A stretch of 64,000 nucleotides of DNA from contig JAQIBP010000056.1 of assembly GCA_027858995.1 (NCBI GenBank), positions 1 to 64,000 of the forward strand. The letters are read 5' to 3'. The number at the start of each line of letters is the position of its first letter. Position 1 is the stretch's first letter. The notes beneath the pieces are model-generated. The model did not search any database, was not told the DNA's origin, and worked only from the letters and a program-made list of their open reading frames with translations. The translations under genes and the position numbers were made by a program. Shown here piece by piece: positions 28,956-50,471 of this stretch. The stretch is from Deltaproteobacteria bacterium (GTDB lineage Bacteria > Desulfobacterota > Desulfobacteria > Desulfobacterales > Desulfobacteraceae).

Positions 28956-29260
28956 AACTGTTTTCCATTATTTTTTCATTTCTTACAAAACCAATATCTG
29001 TTTTGTGCTTTTACAGGAAAAAAGCTACAGTTTTATATTAAATCATCAGTTTTTTATGTCCTTATGCTATTCTAAATTAGCATAAAACATGCCAGCAACT
29101 TTGAATCAGCTTAAATCCCAACGATATCAACTGGTTTGTGCTGCAGTAGATCAGAAGTGGCTTTATTTTTGGTGCTTAATTTAGAATATTTTCGAAATAT
29201 TTTTTTGCAAAATTACGAATTTTTATAAATTTACTATAACCCGATAAAGAATTTTATGTA
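28956..29260. other. intergenic region upstream of the ORP-like cluster
   Basis: No gene. It holds two operator-like inverted repeats: ACAAAAC/GTTTTGT (28985-29006) close to the NifU-like start, and TTATGCTA/TAGCATAA (29062-29085), which overlaps the sigma54-like promoter described separately. Confidence 0.45.
29062..29094 (-). promoter_or_regulatory. sigma54-like promoter overlapping an inverted repeat
   Basis: The minus strand reads TGGCATGTTTTATGCT (29079-29094): GG and GC are exactly 10 bp apart, as in -24/-12 promoters (TGGCAC-N5-TTGCA). It points to the NifU-like gene about 125 bp downstream. The -12 half overlaps an 8-bp inverted repeat (TTATGCTA/TAGCATAA), so it may instead be an operator. 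The orange protein operons of Desulfovibrio are known to be sigma54-dependent. Confidence 0.4.
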
Positions 29261-29450
29261 ACCCGTTACAGGCTGCTTACCTTACGTCCGCTGGATGGAC
29301 ATTGCAACAAGTTCTAAGATCACCTTCGCTGACCGCCATGAACTCGCTCATGCTTCGCTCAAACAACATGGCGGCTTAACCGCTACGGTAATCAAGAACT
29401 TATAAGCAAAGATCCATAATGCTCCCATAAGGCAAACAGCCTTACACTGG
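29261..29450. repeat. 190-bp palindromic repeat, copy 1
   Basis: Same length and orientation as the copy at 46385-46574, with about 13 mismatches counted by eye (about 93% identity). Ends are imperfect inverted repeats (ACCCGTTACAGGCTG and CAGCCTTACACTGG) and the centre has GCCATG/CATGGC arms around a GCTCATGCTTCGCTC loop, so a single strand could fold into one long hairpin. No ORF. It may be a miniature inverted-repeat element. It marks the left edge of an accessory gene islet. Confidence 0.75.
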
Positions 29451-29609
29451 CTGGTGCAGCAAGTTTGAAAAGACTTCATATACATCAAAGATTGCATAGC
29501 TGTCATGATCAAAGATAATCAGCTTGTTGCCAATTCTTCTTCCATTTTCAACCCTAATTGTAGCCTTCCCCTTTTTAGTTCCAAACAAAAGTAGAAACTT
29601 CGGGCGAAT
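29442..29609 (-). pseudogene. 55-codon ORF fragment abutting the repeat
   Basis: An open frame bounded by stops encodes RPKFLLLFGTKKGKAT, then VENGRRIGNKLIIFDHDSY and a C-terminal VYEVFSNLLHQPV. There is no ATG or GTG start. The coherent, protein-like composition suggests the C-terminal end of a lost gene. Its stop codon lies inside the end of the 190-bp repeat. Family not recognised. Confidence 0.35.
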
Positions 29610-43258: not shown

Positions 43259-46200
43259 ATGGATATTATCCGTTTTTTTATCAACAAACCTGTAACTGTT
43301 GCCGTGGGTGTAATCATGGTGGTTATATTCGGGTTTATTGGTATTCAAAAACTTCCGGTTCAACTCACTCCTGATGTTGAAACTCCTTTGATCACAGTGA
43401 ATACAGCCTGGTATGGTGCCACGCCCTATGAAGTTGAAAAAGAGATCATTGAAAAACAGGAAAAAGTTCTAAAGGGCTTGCAGGGACTGACCAAGATGGA
43501 GAGTTCGAGTTACAACAGCCTCGGCACCATAACTCTATCTTTTCAAATCAATACAGATCTGGACGATGCCCTGCTCAGGGTGTCCAATAAATTATCCGAG
43601 GTCAGCAACTATCCGGAAAATGTAAACAAACCAACCATAGAGTCTTCCGGAGCCAACAGCTCACCCATCATCTGGATGGTTATGAAAACAAAACCAGACA
43701 ACACAGAGCATATTAATCAGTTTAAAACTTTTTTTGAGGACAGTGTCCGTCAGCATCTGGAGCGAATTAATGGTGTTGGTTCCCTTTTAATTTTCGGCGG
43801 CACTGAAACAACCCTGGATGTGATAATTGATGCACAGAAAATGGCTCTCTATAATGTTTCAATCAATAATATCATCACATCCATCCGCCAGGCAAATAAA
43901 AATATTTCCGCCGGTATTCTGGGTATGGCCAAGAAAAATTACCGTATCAGAACCATAAGTCAGTTTCAGGCCAAAGATGATGTCCTTGATGTGGTTGTCT
44001 TTGATGACGGAATAAAGCGGGTTTACCTGCGGGATATTGCCCATGTTAAAAAAGGATATAAAAAAGAGAGTTCTTCAGTGCTGCATAATGGTGAACAGGT
44101 TATCGTAGCGGGTGTACGAAAAGAGAAAGGTGCCAATGTCCTGAATATGACAGACCTGGTGGAAAAAGCGGTTCACCATTTGAACAAAACCATCCTTGCC
44201 AGTAACAGGTTAAGTCTTGAAATAGTTTATGATCAGCGCCCCTACATTAATACAGCAATCAATCTGGTAAAGCGCAATATCATCATCGGTGGTCTGCTTG
44301 CTATCTGTGTGCTTTTACTGTTTTTAAGAAGCGTAAGGGCCACATTGATTACAGGTGTTGCAATTCCTATTGCAGCTGTGGGCTGTTTTATCTTCCTATG
44401 GCTGCTGGGAAGAAACCTGAATGTTGTGAGCATGGCTGGAATTTCCTTTGCTGTGGGTATGCTTGTGGATAACTCCATTGTGGTACTTGAAAACATTGAT
44501 CGGCACAGCAAAAAAGGCAAAAAAGCTTTTAATGCAGCTTATGATGGAACAAGAGAGGTGTGGGGCGCAGTTCTTGCCTCCACAGCAACCACAATAGCAG
44601 TATTCCTGCCGGTTATATTTATTCATGAAGAGGCAGGACAACTGTTCCGTGATATTGCCATTGCAGTTACTTCTGCGATTTTTTTGAGCCTTATTGTTTC
44701 AGTCTCCGTGATTCCAACTCTCTTTAACCTGCTTTACAAAAAAGAGTATACCACAAAGCAGGGCAGGCTGCAGAAAAGTTTTATAGGTCCGTTCCTTGCC
44801 GGTATTATATTAAACTTCAGCAAATTGTGCATGAAAAATGTGGTAACCCGACTGTTAACGATTGTTTTGTTTACAACTCTCTCCATTGGTTTAACCTTTC
44901 AGCTTCTGCCAAGCGCTGAATATCTTCCCCAGGGCAATAGAAATCTTATTTTAAATATTCTTATACCGCCTCCTGGATATTCTACAGCTAAACTCAAAAA
45001 CATTGGCAGAAATATATATGAAGAATCCAGGCCATATTTTGAGGAAGATGGCAAAGATGGCTTTCCAATGATTAAAAATATGTTTTTTGTAGGAGCTGAT
45101 CGTGTCACGCTTTTTGGAGGGATAAGCATCCATGAAACACGTGCACGTGAATTGATTCCCCTTTTTAACAAGATAATGAGGTCAATTCCAGGTGTTTTCG
45201 GAGTCAGTATTCAGGCCGGGATTTTCCAGTCTGGAATTGGTGAGGGAAGAACAGTGGATGTCAATGTTTCAGGCGAAAAAATTCAAGATATTATCAATGC
45301 TTCATTTGCTCTGTTCAGTACCATAGGTGCAAAAATGGAACACTCCCAGGTTCGTCCGGTACCTTCCCTTGAAGCCAGTTATCCAGAGGTGAGAATAATT
45401 CCCAGAAAAGAGAAACTTGCTGCCAACGGTCTTACAGCACAGGATCTCGGTGTATATGTCGATATCCTCATGGATGGCCGTAAAATTGAAGAATATCGTC
45501 CCGAGGGGATAAAACAGAATGATCTGGTTCTTAAAGGCAAGATTTCTGCAGTTAGATCTCCCGAGGATATTTTGAACAGCATAATTGTAAACAGATTTGG
45601 AGATCTTATACGGGTGAAGGATGTGGCAGATATTGAATACAGCCAGGGTTTGCCCCAGATAAATCACCTGGAAAGAGACAGAACAATCACCCTTCAGGTT
45701 ACTCCACCTGCTGATCTCTCTTTACAGAATGCCATGGAGCTTATAGAAAATGATATCATCCCTCTATTGGAAAAAGAGGGGAGACTTCAAAATGTCAGAG
45801 TGGACATTGGCGGAAATGCTGATAAACTTGTGGCTACAAGGAATGCACTTCAGTGGAATCTTCTGCTGGCATTAATCATTACCTATCTGCTGATGTCAGC
45901 ACTGTTTGAAAATTTTCTTTATCCTTTTATTATTCTCTTTTCTCTGCCTCTTGCCGGAGCAGGAGGTTTTGCAGGACTTTGGGCGGTAAATGCATTGATT
46001 GCTCCCCAGGGTTTTGATGTTTTGAGCATGCTGGGATTTATAATTCTGATCGGCACAGTTGTAAACAATGCCATTCTTATTGTTCATCAATCTTTGAATA
46101 ATGTCCGCTATAATGGTCTCATTGGAAAAGATGCTGTGACTGATGCTGTTAAAACCAGAATCAGGCCCATTTTCATGAGCGCCATCACCAGTCTTCTTGC

Positions 46201-46369
46201 AATGCTGCCCATGGTGCTGTCAACCGGTTCCGGAAGTGAACTCTATCGAGGTCTGGGCTCAATTTTGCTTGGAGGCCTTGCCATGTCAACAATTTTTACA
46301 CTTTTTGTGATTCCGTCTCTTCTGGTTTTTGTTATTGGAATTGAAACTGATAAAACTGTGAATTCTTGA
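43259..46369 (+). CDS. RND family efflux transporter, inner-membrane pump
   Basis: 1036 aa, full-length AcrB/HAE1-type transporter with twelve membrane helices and two large periplasmic loops. N-terminal FFINKPVTVAVGVIMVVIFGFIGIQKLPVQLTPDVE, proton-relay segment GISFAVGMLVDNSIVVLENIDRH in TM4 and the late GFIILIGTVVNNAILIVHQ/AITSLLAMLPMVLSTGSG. Closer to MdtB-like or heavy-chain pumps in the loop lengths; substrate unknown. Three bases after the adaptor, one operon. Confidence 0.94.
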   Translation: MDIIRFFINKPVTVAVGVIMVVIFGFIGIQKLPVQLTPDVETPLITVNTAWYGATPYEVEKEIIEKQEKVLKGLQGLTKMESSSYNSLGTITLSFQINTDLDDALLRVSNKLSEVSNYPENVNKPTIESSGANSSPIIWMVMKTKPDNTEHINQFKTFFEDSVRQHLERINGVGSLLIFGGTETTLDVIIDAQKMALYNVSINNIITSIRQANKNISAGILGMAKKNYRIRTISQFQAKDDVLDVVVFDDGIKRVYLRDIAHVKKGYKKESSSVLHNGEQVIVAGVRKEKGANVLNMTDLVEKAVHHLNKTILASNRLSLEIVYDQRPYINTAINLVKRNIIIGGLLAICVLLLFLRSVRATLITGVAIPIAAVGCFIFLWLLGRNLNVVSMAGISFAVGMLVDNSIVVLENIDRHSKKGKKAFNAAYDGTREVWGAVLASTATTIAVFLPVIFIHEEAGQLFRDIAIAVTSAIFLSLIVSVSVIPTLFNLLYKKEYTTKQGRLQKSFIGPFLAGIILNFSKLCMKNVVTRLLTIVLFTTLSIGLTFQLLPSAEYLPQGNRNLILNILIPPPGYSTAKLKNIGRNIYEESRPYFEEDGKDGFPMIKNMFFVGADRVTLFGGISIHETRARELIPLFNKIMRSIPGVFGVSIQAGIFQSGIGEGRTVDVNVSGEKIQDIINASFALFSTIGAKMEHSQVRPVPSLEASYPEVRIIPRKEKLAANGLTAQDLGVYVDILMDGRKIEEYRPEGIKQNDLVLKGKISAVRSPEDILNSIIVNRFGDLIRVKDVADIEYSQGLPQINHLERDRTITLQVTPPADLSLQNAMELIENDIIPLLEKEGRLQNVRVDIGGNADKLVATRNALQWNLLLALIITYLLMSALFENFLYPFIILFSLPLAGAGGFAGLWAVNALIAPQGFDVLSMLGFIILIGTVVNNAILIVHQSLNNVRYNGLIGKDAVTDAVKTRIRPIFMSAITSLLAMLPMVLSTGSGSELYRGLGSILLGGLAMSTIFTLFVIPSLLVFVIGIETDKTVNS

Positions 46370-46384
46370 GCTAATGTTCCATAG

Positions 46385-46574
46385 ACCCGTTACAGGCTGA
46401 TTACCTTACATCCGCTGGATGGACATGGCAACAAGTTCTAAGATTATCTTCGCTGGCCGCCATGAACTCGCTCATGCTTCGCTCAAACAACATGGCGGCT
46501 TAACCGCTACGTTAATCAAGAACTTGTAAGCAATGATCCATAATGCTCCCGTAAGGTAATCAGCCTTCCACTGG
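46385..46574. repeat. 190-bp palindromic repeat, copy 2
   Basis: Same orientation as copy 1. Here the near-terminal arms are a perfect 15-bp inverted repeat, GGCTGATTACCTTAC (46395-46409) with GTAAGGTAATCAGCC (46551-46565), and inner arms GGCCGCCATG/CATGGCGGC are kept. It lies between the RND pump and the antitoxin gene, at the distal end of the decayed integron. No ORF. Confidence 0.8.
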
Positions 46575-46591
46575 AGTGCACAGCAATTTTG

Positions 46592-46861
46592 TTATGCCAC
46601 TTTCTGTATTAACTCTGCTTCATATTCAGGAAACATTATAATAGCTGGATGAACACCAAATGCATGTGCCAATTGTTCAGCGCGTTTCTTGCCGATATCC
46701 ACTTTGTTATTTTCTAAAAGACTAATATTTTTAGAATTAATACCAGACTGTTTTGCAAGTTCTTCTTGTGTCCACTCTTTCAGTTCTCTCAACATACGGA
46801 TTACTTCCCCCGTGGTAATTGAAGCATGTTTTTTAGCTGGTACAAAATTTTTCTTTTTCAT
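46592..46861 (-). CDS. XRE-family antitoxin-like HTH protein (orphaned HigA/RelB type)
   Basis: 89 aa. Helix-turn-helix: ITTGEVIRMLRELKEWTQEELAKQSGINSKNISLLENNKVDIGKKRAEQLAHAFGVHP. HigA-like antitoxins have this form and normally follow their toxin gene; here the toxin upstream is broken. The RBS (AGGGGGAAC) lies in a leader very like that of the membrane protein gene at 48.5 kb. It could still repress or guard against related toxins. Confidence 0.75.
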   Translation of the reverse strand: MKKKNFVPAKKHASITTGEVIRMLRELKEWTQEELAKQSGINSKNISLLENNKVDIGKKRAEQLAHAFGVHPAIIMFPEYEAELIQKVA

Positions 46862-46871
46862 ATTGTTCCCC

Positions 46872-47019
46872 CTAATATTTATGAGGAGTTAATTCTAATA
46901 CATAAACGGTTACTTCTTTCGCCATCTATTTCATAAATAACTCTATACTGTAAATCTATCCGTGAAGATCGTTGTCCCTCATGATTTTTGGGTAGCAGTT
47001 TTTTAATTATTTTTTGGTG
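46872..47019 (-). pseudogene. broken RelE/HigB-type toxin
   Basis: One frame gives HQKIIKKLLPKNHEGQ and RSSRIDLQYRVIYEIDG, the C-terminal half of RelE/HigB toxins; after a +1 shift the other frame continues EVTVYVLELTPHKY and stops, as such toxins do. The N-terminal half is missing (a stop precedes the fragment next to mazF). It sits 10 bp upstream of the antitoxin gene, the normal toxin-antitoxin order. Too fragmented for the ORF track. Confidence 0.7.
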
Positions 47020-47023
47020 TTAT

Positions 47024-47377
47024 TTACAGTTCTTTAGGTTCAGTAAGAAGCTTGAGGCCTTCAAGAATTTTATACATTCTTTTCTCTGATACTTGACCAA
47101 TCTTTTCAACTAAGTCGCTTTTATTTACTGTGTAAATTTGTGAAATATTAACAACGCTTTTTTTGGGCAAGTTGGCTTCACTTTTGTTGAGAGGGACATT
47201 TCCAGGGGCTTTAGCTCTTTTTAAATTTGAAGTTAAAGAACATACAACAACAGTATTGATATTGCTTGAATTGAATATATTGTTTTGAATTACAATATGT
47301 GGATGCCTGTAACCAGGTTCAGACCCTCTTGGTTCTCCTAAGTTTACCCAATAAATTCCACCTTGTTTTGCTACCAT
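47024..47377 (-). CDS. mazF: MazF/PemK-family mRNA interferase toxin
   Basis: 117 aa. Typical MazF features: GGIYWVNLGEPRGSEPGYRHPHIVIQNN at the start (catalytic Arg in RGSEPGYRHP), VVVCSLTSN and a C-terminal SEKRMYKILEGLKLL. It cleaves mRNA when free. Starts 7 bp inside the antitoxin gene. The downstream end abuts the broken RelE toxin. Confidence 0.9.
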   Translation of the reverse strand: MVAKQGGIYWVNLGEPRGSEPGYRHPHIVIQNNIFNSSNINTVVVCSLTSNLKRAKAPGNVPLNKSEANLPKKSVVNISQIYTVNKSDLVEKIGQVSEKRMYKILEGLKLLTEPKEL

Positions 47378-47628
47378 GATTCTCGCCCTACAATTTTGCG
47401 ATGTTTTTCATGCATAGCTTTTGAAATTGTCTTTTCTTCTCCATTTGGTGAATCGCTATAAGCCGCATTAAGTTGAGCAAGTAGCATTTTATTCTCTTGC
47501 TTTTTTAAATAATCTTTGACAGCAAGGGCAAACAATTTACTGCGTGACACATGTAAATCTTTGGATAGTTGGTTGACTTGATTGAATAAATTCGTTTCTA
47601 ATGATATTGCAGTTTTTACACTGGACAT
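47371..47628 (-). CDS. mazE: ribbon-helix-helix antitoxin for MazF
   Basis: 85 aa. N-terminal ribbon-helix-helix (VKTAISLETNLFNQVNQLSKDLHVSRSKLFALAVKDYLKK) for DNA binding and dimerisation, then an acidic flexible tail likely to wrap around MazF. CopG/MazE-like. A strong GGAGG RBS and a near-consensus promoter lie upstream. Overlap with the toxin start ensures coupling. Confidence 0.87.
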   Translation of the reverse strand: MSSVKTAISLETNLFNQVNQLSKDLHVSRSKLFALAVKDYLKKQENKMLLAQLNAAYSDSPNGEEKTISKAMHEKHRKIVGRESW

Positions 47629-47671
47629 TTAGATACCTCCATATATAATATTTGCATATGTTATATCTGTA

Positions 47672-47700
47672 ATTATTTATCATATTTATACTTTTGTCAA
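47672..47700 (-). promoter_or_regulatory. mazEF promoter
   Basis: TTGACA (47695-47700) and AATAAT (47672-47677) with a 17-bp spacer. The downstream leader has the palindromic text CATATG and ATATAT that could be an antitoxin operator. Cassette genes usually lack promoters, toxin-antitoxin cassettes being the exception. Confidence 0.65.
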
Positions 47701-47745
47701 TACTTTAATTCATACAATACTGTTTCTTATCGGTAGTGATTCGAC

Positions 47746-47877
47746 TGCTAACGGCCCTAATAAGTTGCCGAAAATACAACGGGATGAAACCTTGAAAGAC
47801 CGGAAAATATTGATTGCAGGTGCCACTCTGACAAAAAAGCCGCTATTTTCTGTCAACTCTTCATTCGATGGTTATGT
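47746..47877 (-). repeat. attC-like recombination site 3
   Basis: On the minus strand it starts with ACATAAC and ends with GTTAGCA. The arms AATGAAGAGTTGACAGAAAATA and TATTTTCGGCAACTTATT pair with a few bulges and enclose a large variable loop; 132 bp lies within the attC range. It begins 7 bp after the stop of the membrane protein gene. Confidence 0.45.
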
Positions 47878-47884
47878 TTTGCAT

Positions 47885-48556
47885 TTATTCAATTATCGAT
47901 TTGTATAATAGGTCAGCATTATTTCCCTTGAAATTGACCCATTTCTGAATATCTTCAATACCTTTCATTTGTTGACTTGCATTATTTGTTTCTAAACCGG
48001 CAAGGTATAATTTCCATCCTTTCAATAAATGCTCTTTAAAATATACTTTTAATTTTGGGTGGACACTATTTAAAAAGTCCTTTGAAACCAAAAGACCAAA
48101 TCTTATACCGTCATTTATTAATGATTTCATCTCCTCTTCTTGCATTTCCGAAAGTTGAACAATATTCCCATTTTTGTCTGATTGCATTTCATGAGCTTTT
48201 ATAAATGACATAATCGCATTTTTACAATTCAACTTATCGATTTTCCCATTCTCAACAACAATCATATGCTGGTTTTTTGAGTCTGAAGCTTGACTTTTAA
48301 ATTCAGGGAAAAAGTGTGTAGAAAAAATACCAACAATTGAAAATATTAAACATGCAAATGTGACTCCCATATTCGCCCATACCCAAAACCTTACTACATT
48401 TCCTCCTGAATTATCCCTGGCTGCCGTTTTAACGGTTTCTCCCGTGAGCCAATCAAGAATAAATAAAACGAGAATTATCCACCACAGGATATTGTGGGCA
48501 GTCCCCCATAGTTTGTATAGAGCAAAGGCAGCGATTATAGAAATAATGAATTTCAT
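47885..48556 (-). CDS. hypothetical membrane protein, cassette-borne
   Basis: 223 aa. Three hydrophobic segments near the N-terminus (residues about 3-20, 25-40 and 58-84) and a soluble, charged C-terminal region of about 135 residues (SFIKAHEMQSDKNGN, FLNSVHPKLKVYFKEHLLKGWKLYLAGLE). No family recognised. Strong RBS AGGGGGAAC. Because an attC-like site lies on each side (47746-47877 and 48585-48654) it looks like one complete integron cassette. Confidence 0.6.
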   Translation of the reverse strand: MKFIISIIAAFALYKLWGTAHNILWWIILVLFILDWLTGETVKTAARDNSGGNVVRFWVWANMGVTFACLIFSIVGIFSTHFFPEFKSQASDSKNQHMIVVENGKIDKLNCKNAIMSFIKAHEMQSDKNGNIVQLSEMQEEEMKSLINDGIRFGLLVSKDFLNSVHPKLKVYFKEHLLKGWKLYLAGLETNNASQQMKGIEDIQKWVNFKGNNADLLYKSIIE

Positions 48557-48584
48557 TAGTTCCCCCTATATTCCTAGAACACTA

Positions 48585-48654
48585 GCATAACCAGCATTTT
48601 TCAGAGCGCAGTGAGCGAAGCGAACGGAGCGGTGAAAAACGTCTGTGTTTATGC
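48585..48654 (-). repeat. attC-like recombination site 4
   Basis: On the minus strand GCATAAAC and GTTATGC are complementary end boxes, except for one extra A. Inside, CAGACGTTTTTCA pairs with TGAAAAATGCTG leaving one extrahelical base, and the loop is rich in CGCTTCGCTC-type text. 70 bp. It starts 5 bp after the stop of the OLD-family gene. Confidence 0.55.
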
Positions 48655-48659
48655 ATTTA

Positions 48660-50471
48660 TTAACTTTTTATATAATCCCCGAAAATTGCTTTCATTTTAT
48701 CTTTCCAACTATCTGGAATGGAATTCCAATCATTCCCCCATTTCACAGTTTCCTGAAAAGCCCTAAACGGCTTCTCGGAGGACGGGGCTGCATATCCTAT
48801 TTCATCTTCAACATTTTCATGCATCTGAATTACCCTTCCATTTTCACCAATTGCATCAGCAATTGGCTGGTTAAACTTTACAGCTCCATCTATGCCATCA
48901 TCTCTGTCATGCACCACAATGGGCTTAATTCCCATTGCTACTAAGTATTTTGCAAGTCCTATAATGGATGCTTTTCCTCTTGCTTTAACTATCTCATAAT
49001 CGGCAACAATTTTTAAGTATTGATCTTGCGGTAATTTTTTAAGGGTTTCTGCAATTAAAATTTCTTCTGTGTCGCCCTCAATAACAACAACATGCTTGGT
49101 GAAAAAAACTCTTGCGATATGATCATCTACTCGTAACAGCATTTTGACATGGGTTTTGTCATCCTCCGCTAGTGCTCTGTATGCAATTGTAACATTAAAA
49201 GGATTTGCTTCAACTCCAGATGGAGTGATACACATATTGTTCAAAATTTGTTTGGGTTTCCTTGAGAGGTCTATAATGAAGGGGGAGTGTGTTGTTGCAA
49301 CAATTTGTGATCCACTTGTACTCAAATCATAAATTGTATCACGCATTTGGTTGGCTGCACTGGGATGAAGGAATATTTCAGGTTCTTCGAAGCAAACGAT
49401 AAGGGAACGCTGATGCTCGTCTTCTTTTCTTGACAACCACTTCTGGCGAAACCTTAGCATTCCAAACGCAGCAGCTCTTACCATTCCAGAACCTTGATGC
49501 GTAACGGGTGTCCTAACATTACTGGACATTTCAACTTTGAATGTAGGTTTAAGTGCTTTATTTGGATCACTAAGGTCTGTTGTCGCATGAAGCTGAGAAT
49601 CAGGGAAAACACTAGATAAAACATCATTAAGTTCAGTAATCATCTTTCCAAACTCTGAAGCATCATCTTCAGGATCCAACTCTTTGGATAATTTATCTAA
49701 GTAACTTTGAGCTTGCTGATAATTATCAGAACTCTCTCTTACATCTTCAAATAGTTCATTCAAAGTTTTTCCCAAAACACCTGAGGCTGATCCTTCTATT
49801 TCACTTATGGAAGTATCAGCAGGAATGAGAAGGAAACGAGGAAGCATTTTAAGTACATTCCCAGGTATCCCGCCCGGGTTTTGAAACCATGTTTCTTCTT
49901 CACCAAGAATCCAAATTTCATCCAATTGCTCAAGCTTCTCTATGGCTCCTTTACTTTTACCGATATTTTTCGATAAGTCAGAAAAAAGACTGCTTATAAG
50001 TTCTTCATCTATGCCCTTGTCAATATAGTCTTGGCCTTTTTTACAATCTGCATATTCTGAATCCAGTTCACGCTCTTTTGACTTGAATTCAATTTTTACG
50101 TCAACACCAAGTTTGAAGGTTTTACGATATGTAACTGACAACCCAGAGTCATCCTCATCATCCGTTTCGTAGTTGAATATACGCCCTTTGAATCCTCTCC
50201 ACTGATGTGCGTCATCTGGTAAGTTGCGAAACTCAGCCTCAAGAATAATCTCTGCTACCGCTGGTTTTGTTTCTCCAGTTTCATCATCGATTACAGAATA
50301 ATATTCTGGGCTTGGAATAGTTTTCTTCGCAGAAAGCAAGTATTCAATTGCTTTAAACGCCGTACTCTTACCTGAGTTATTTGCTCCAATAAGAAAAGTT
50401 GCATCTTCGAACAAAATACTTGCGGATCGGATTCTTCTAAATCCTTCGATTTTTAATGAATATAATTTCAT
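48660..50471 (-). CDS. OLD-family ATP-dependent endonuclease (ABC-type ATPase + TOPRIM)
   Basis: 603 aa. N-terminal RecF/SMC-like ATPase (LKIEGFRRIRSASILFEDATFLIGANNSGKSTAFKAIEYLL; signature and Walker B around CFEEPEIFLHPSA; H-loop ATTHSPFIIDLS) and a C-terminal TOPRIM nuclease with E in VVIEGDTEEIL and DxD in VVHDRDDGID. Resembles class 1 OLD nucleases, which act in phage defence; no UvrD-like partner follows, so not an obvious Gabija pair. First cassette position next to the integrase fragment. RBS AAGGGAT. Large for a cassette gene. Confidence 0.8.
   Translation of the reverse strand: MKLYSLKIEGFRRIRSASILFEDATFLIGANNSGKSTAFKAIEYLLSAKKTIPSPEYYSVIDDETGETKPAVAEIILEAEFRNLPDDAHQWRGFKGRIFNYETDDEDDSGLSVTYRKTFKLGVDVKIEFKSKERELDSEYADCKKGQDYIDKGIDEELISSLFSDLSKNIGKSKGAIEKLEQLDEIWILGEEETWFQNPGGIPGNVLKMLPRFLLIPADTSISEIEGSASGVLGKTLNELFEDVRESSDNYQQAQSYLDKLSKELDPEDDASEFGKMITELNDVLSSVFPDSQLHATTDLSDPNKALKPTFKVEMSSNVRTPVTHQGSGMVRAAAFGMLRFRQKWLSRKEDEHQRSLIVCFEEPEIFLHPSAANQMRDTIYDLSTSGSQIVATTHSPFIIDLSRKPKQILNNMCITPSGVEANPFNVTIAYRALAEDDKTHVKMLLRVDDHIARVFFTKHVVVIEGDTEEILIAETLKKLPQDQYLKIVADYEIVKARGKASIIGLAKYLVAMGIKPIVVHDRDDGIDGAVKFNQPIADAIGENGRVIQMHENVEDEIGYAAPSSEKPFRAFQETVKWGNDWNSIPDSWKDKMKAIFGDYIKS

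Follow-up and report, generated by a model that had tools for sequence, protein, structure and literature searches.

Several IS-derived MITEs of bacteria give transcripts with long stem-loops, including QMITE2 of Coxiella burnetii, the Correia/NEMIS elements of Neisseria, and the ERIC elements of enterobacteria (PMC10969869, PMC2229807). QMITE2 is flanked by 7-9 bp target duplications, Correia elements are cut by RNase III, and some known MITEs give small RNAs or RNase III sites (PMC10969869, PMC2229807). The Desulfobacula family described here is like these elements in being non-coding, in belonging to a class of roughly 100-200 bp, and in having terminal repeats (TIRs), target duplications, intergenic positions, and a long stem-loop. 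By description, it differs from them in having two diverged hairpins (HP1 and HP2) with a common loop, one inside each TIR. It also differs, again by description, in the quantified compensatory change and one-strand wobble bias of these hairpins. In the IS4 superfamily (IS10 and IS50), a DDE_Tnp_1 transposase is combined with ends that start with CTG and with short target duplications. The parent insertion sequence (IS) of our family has all three properties, but unlike those examples it is 2.2-3.0 kb long with long non-coding ends. IS10 also encodes RNA-OUT, an outward-reading stem-loop RNA, inside its IS end. HP1 is comparable by analogy only, as an outward stem-loop in an IS end, and unlike RNA-OUT it is at the 3' side of the transposase. 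A search of the open-access literature found no description of this MITE family, which is weak evidence of absence. Apparently, neither this MITE nor the related IS group of the order, which has well-defined ends, duplications, and a transposase, has been described.

The window (the whole 64,000-bp stretch of DNA that was analysed) contains two copies of the repeat, which are equal in length, on the same strand, and spaced 17,124 bp start to start. A sequence-only reading had put their identity at about 93%, and it is 93.16% over 190 bp, with 13 mismatches. They can be followed as same-strand repeats of 190-207 bp at 29261-29467 and 46385-46591. The perfect 15-bp inverted repeat reported for copy 2 was found (GGCTGATTACCTTAC at 46395-46409, with its complement at 46551-46565). 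There was also no ORF of more than 36 aa inside copy 2, in agreement with the claim that the repeat is non-coding. The 190-bp repeat itself is real, but the edges that had been given to it were too narrow, because homology to complete elements extends beyond them (~29223-29489 for copy 1 and 46356 to ~46590 for copy 2). A complete 261-bp element, L087, aligned to 29223-29489 and to 46356-46617, with only a weak continuation up to 46617 at copy 2. The 190 bp correspond to hairpin HP1, which makes up the interior of a larger element with CTGGATATTTGCCATAAG ends. Clear TIRs and a target duplication were not seen at either window copy, and both are old, immobile, decayed remnants in intergenic DNA. 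Their features are as follows.

29223-29489, + strand: copy 1, a decayed MITE with eroded terminal repeats (from the alignment to the complete 261-bp L087)
29261-29450, + strand: hairpin HP1 of copy 1
29341-29365, + strand: conserved apical loop motif of copy 1, AACTCGCTCATGCTTCGCTCAAACA
29466-29567, - strand: remnant of the parental transposase gene (residues 491-520 of a 550-aa query, 67% over 30 aa)
46356-46591, + strand: copy 2, a decayed MITE with its right terminal repeat lost (left end fixed by empty-site comparison)
46356-46369, + strand: final codons and stop of the RND-pump gene at 43259-46369, contributed by the element
46385-46574, + strand: hairpin HP1 of copy 2
46395-46409, + strand: left arm of the perfect 15-bp inverted repeat, GGCTGATTACCTTAC
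46465-46489, + strand: conserved apical loop motif of copy 2
46551-46565, + strand: right arm of the 15-bp inverted repeat, GTAAGGTAATCAGCC

The insertion site of copy 2 could be located by comparison with relatives. The orthologue match of the RND-pump gene ended at 46355 in six of them and at 46356 in G007. In other relatives it ended slightly earlier or later, with unrelated sequence beyond. The left end of the element in the L087 alignment coincided with the end of the RND match. Therefore, the left junction of copy 2 is at 46355/46356. Copy 2 landed at the very 3' end of the RND-pump gene and supplies its last codons. To its right, homology to other HTH genes resumed at 46586-46592, which indicates that the right TIR was lost. 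The adjacent region, 46592-50471, is a defence-like islet encoding an HTH protein and an adjoining PemK/MazF-like toxin, followed by an OLD-like AAA/TOPRIM ATPase.

The sequence-only reading had noted that each copy is at the edge of an accessory islet and had suggested either a miniature mobile element or a structure linked to cassette mobilisation. The second suggestion was not supported for these two copies, because they are decayed and on the same strand, and the RND pump between them is conserved in relatives. No matching ends bracketing either islet were found, and the association of the repeats with the islets is probably incidental. A related idea is that the islets move as part of a 17-kb composite unit with one copy at each end. 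The same-strand arrangement of copies 17 kb apart would fit this, as would a 2.1-kb passenger unit found in another genome (G005; see below), and MITE-bounded composite units (TIME-COMPs) do exist (PMC13367494). However, the two copies are eroded and differ by 7%, at least seven relatives have the intervening RND gene but not the copy, and no duplication was seen at the outer ends. We consider a composite unit highly improbable.

We also determined how widely the repeat is distributed. The genome that contains the window (3.98 Mb in 172 contigs) had at least 27 matches, about nine of them near full length, and these were scattered singly. The count excludes the outcome that would have undermined the sequence-only reading, in which the repeat occurs just twice as part of one duplicated gene. 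Matches were also found in 15 of 25 other Desulfobacula genomes, whereas a set of 32 genomes from elsewhere in the family and order gave none. The apical loop motif, with at most one mismatch, was in 3 of 292 sampled genomes of the order, all of them Desulfobacula. Contig titles of the pattern matches named Desulfobacula repeatedly, and the rest named only Desulfobacteraceae, Desulfobacterales, Deltaproteobacteria, or proteobacteria. Phage and plasmid collections were searched with the repeat, and IMG/VR with the loop pattern, all without a match. The TIR pattern in IMG/VR mainly matched one recurring unrelated sequence, with no inverted pair. In these searches HP1 was confined to one genus, whereas the transposase and the TIR occur across the order.

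Aligning the copies with their flanks revealed conservation outside the 190 bp, with CTGGATATTTGCCATAAG...CATAACCCGTT on the left and, in some copies, GTATAGCAA...GCAAATATCCAG on the right. In the genome of the window, the TIR pattern CTGGATATTTGCCATAA had 27 hits with at most two mismatches, compared with none for a reversed control. Related elements with CTGGATATTTGCCATAAG at both ends ranged from 61 bp to 2.1 kb. The shortest were 61-71 bp (L102, L108, L115, and L120), intermediate copies were 216-621 bp, and the largest was 2082 bp (L264). Inspection of flanks for target-site duplications, as the sequence-only reading had proposed, revealed an exact duplication of 7-9 bp in 20 of 32 complete elements. 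In a control that paired left and right flanks from different elements, 0 of 992 pairings had one. The duplicated flanks identify the complete elements as transposition products.

These data also bear on integron attC-like recombination sites bordering cassettes. HP1 is like attC in that structure is conserved above sequence and one strand is preferred. Accessory genes adjoin the window copies, and GCTTAAC resembles half of an R-box. However, GCTTAAC (RYYYAAC-type) lies on just one side of the apical stem, the 3' side, and has no GTTRRRY partner, and so HP1 does not have paired R/L boxes, just as the sequence-only reading had stated. Furthermore, HP1 is part of a transposon with TIRs and 7-9 bp duplications, its copies are scattered singly, and some have transposase remnants attached. 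The target duplications refute the attC reading, to which we assign a negligible chance.

Some larger units also have these ends. L264 (positions 136-2217; G005:C124) is 2082 bp long and has TIRs and an exact duplication of TTTTGAAA. HP2 and HP1 occupy its opposite ends. It contains a small lipoprotein-like ORF and a 212-aa ORF, and no transposase. It is a mobile passenger cassette and, having passenger ORFs only, it was ruled out as an autonomous element. A 5.5-kb region (L150 1019-6587, which is G004:C20 72518-78086) has inverted CTGGATATTTGCCATAAG-type ends of ~31 bp and ORFs that by eye are TPR-like, PEP-CTERM-like, and copper-ATPase-like. This was also rejected as an autonomous element, because it is without a recognisable transposase and without a duplication. 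Contig ends in G005 (L158-L169) are of two TIR-bearing kinds, A (with HP2) and B, and their flanks pair by eye as duplications (for example, L159 with L163, ATATACAAC). This suggests a recently active IS with its interior missing from the assembly.

At one contig end in G019, ~125 bp inward from a TIR of this type, we found the 3' portion of a gene for a DDE_Tnp_1 transposase. We used this gene part to search 292 genomes of the order. Complete ISs of 2.2-3.0 kb were found, some within the same family and some in other families of the order. Their ends are CTGGATATTTG(C/A)TATAAG and close variants, they have 7-9 bp duplications, and they encode a DDE_Tnp_1 transposase of 550-566 aa. G303, a one-contig genome of the same family, had 12 copies of the transposase gene, and the copies read end to end were 2545-2620 bp with the TIR CTGGATATTTGCTATAAG. 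Autonomous relatives with the same ends and a duplication were in G303, G032, G277, G069, and G246. The sequence-only reading had recommended looking for a full-length element that has a transposase and the same ends, and these elements, all outside Desulfobacula, match that description. The transposase matched PF01609 (49.2 bits, E 7e-13), but it scored 27.6 bits against the NCBIfam IS4 model NF033592, which has a cut-off of 115. Therefore, we call the parent IS IS4-like and do not assign it to the IS4 family.

In Desulfobacula, no intact autonomous IS with HP1 was found, and G005 had only ends, at contig breaks. Remnants were informative, however. L252 (G003) has the order TIR, HP1, transposase remnant, HP2, and in G000:C164 a transposase remnant (49 residues at 71%) is beside another HP1 copy. 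Together with the remnant at copy 1, this indicates that HP1 originated immediately downstream of the transposase gene. HP1 is absent from full-length IS relatives outside the genus, which have different subterminal hairpins. Therefore, HP1 is not essential for transposition in the wider family. We also examined L273 and L282, which are the 3' and 5' non-coding ends of autonomous ISs. They have strong subterminal hairpins (the best two with z ~-6), without clear strand bias. Hairpins at the ends may thus be common to this IS group as a whole.

The family is multicopy and has no transposase of its own, as MITEs do. The suggestion of a miniature mobile element is supported by the TIRs, the target-site duplications, the empty-site junction of copy 2, and the full-length relatives that encode a transposase. 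We are almost certain that the window repeats are remnants of an IS-derived MITE, which would have been moved in trans by the DDE_Tnp_1 transposase of a 2.2-3.0 kb IS with the same ends. Palindromic, intergenic, multicopy repeats could instead be hairpins of the REP/RAYT or IS200/IS605 type, which depend on an HUH transposase for their movement. That is contradicted by the target duplications, the TIRs, and the DDE_Tnp_1 partner. The DDE parent with the same ends refutes this reading, and its probability is close to nil.

An unusual feature of the MITE is a covarying, strand-biased hairpin at each element end. Copy 2 folded into one long hairpin of -39.5 kcal/mol (DNA parameters), with z = -7 relative to shuffled sequences, 0 of 200 of which were as good. 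We then compared 38 distinct HP1 sequences. Their plus-strand consensus had 37 pairs, with compensatory change in 26, although HP1 and HP2 copies are related by descent and so counts and cells are not independent events. Pairing was intact in 95.6% of cells, and 0 of 500 shuffles reached such values. When the partners were slid by one to three columns, pairing was at most 41%.

One strand was consistently favoured. For HP1 it is the minus strand, with a consensus of 56 pairs and -60.3 kcal/mol, compared with -27.0 for the plus strand. HP2, which is the paralogue of HP1 at the other end of the element, had 55 pairs and -50.8 versus -35.7 kcal/mol (14 sequences). The favoured strand folded more strongly in 38/38 HP1 and 14/14 HP2 sequences. 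It also had more wobble cells than the other strand over the union of pair sets (115 versus 19 for HP1 and 48 versus 5 for HP2). The HP1 wobble bias was weaker in pairs predicted on both strands (24 versus 13 cells, binomial p = 0.10). A-U, G-U, and G-C states occurred together in several pairs (for example, HP1 columns 20-184 and 80-123 and HP2 columns 77-122). HP1 and HP2 have a common layout of ACCCGTTCC, stem, apical stem with loop AACTCgNTCATNCTTCNCTCAAACA, stem, and CCACTGG. Their stems are largely different, and some HP2 sequences have a diverged loop. The favoured strand of each hairpin reads outward, that is, toward the TIR, and in HP1 it is the sense strand of the transposase gene.

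The covariation, together with the one-strand bias via G-U pairs, indicates selection on a single-stranded fold. We judge it likely that the hairpin has been selected as a folded strand. It might be argued that the same MITE was not selected for structure at all and that its arms match through arm-to-arm correction by template switching. Template switching is known to perfect quasi-palindromes and would yield paired changes, and most copies are decayed. However, arm-to-arm correction could explain the covariation and not the strand bias, with its G-U intermediates. Conserved bulges and a conserved loop also persist, and HP1 and HP2 kept a common loop and layout with largely different stems. 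We regard correction without selection as unlikely.

Some HP1 copies have one of two different repeats inserted into the apical loop, at almost the same position (AACT/AACTC). The interrupted copies are L012, L014, and L015 (contigs C164, C151, and C127 of the window's genome), L016, L110, L019, and L020. Contigs end inside the inserted repeats, which had no plasmid match. They are probably other insertion sequences that prefer the HP1 loop.

If HP1 was selected as a folded strand, the molecule could be DNA or RNA. Single-stranded DNA, such as a hairpin extruded in replication or transposition, might be the selected form. G-T is the mildest DNA mismatch as well, so a one-strand bias is expected there too. 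The fold also holds with DNA parameters, and the two different insertions at the apical loop are consistent with this. However, the general view of DDE elements of this type is that they transpose as double-stranded DNA, and full-length relatives outside the genus do not have HP1. Single-stranded DNA is therefore a minority possibility. We lean slightly toward RNA, which is the simplest reading. Rfam 15 had no match for the hairpin at the gathering threshold over the whole window, and up to E 1 it gave only the flanking tRNA and two sub-threshold microRNA models. A promoter scan of one copy was negative. HP1 would be under selection in active source elements, where it would most likely act as outward-strand RNA, a stable stem-loop in transcripts leaving the element. 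It may protect, process, or limit the transposase mRNA. Taken as a whole, a Desulfobacula IS-derived MITE that is moved in trans, with HP1 selected as a folded strand that is likely RNA, is very probably the best explanation of these data.

The repeats at the islet edges are thus transposon debris and should not be read as recombination sites. In MITEs, hairpins are commonly regarded as incidental products of the inverted ends. HP1 and HP2 have exchanged most of their stem bases, yet pairing, layout, and strand preference were kept. This makes them a testable case of selection on RNA (or single-stranded DNA) structure within a DDE transposon. A more speculative possibility is that HP1 and HP2 represent a new class of transposon-encoded structured RNA. 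If so, they would be paired outward hairpins that differ in their stems and have one loop in common, and they would bind a common partner and control transcripts of the IS or of the host.
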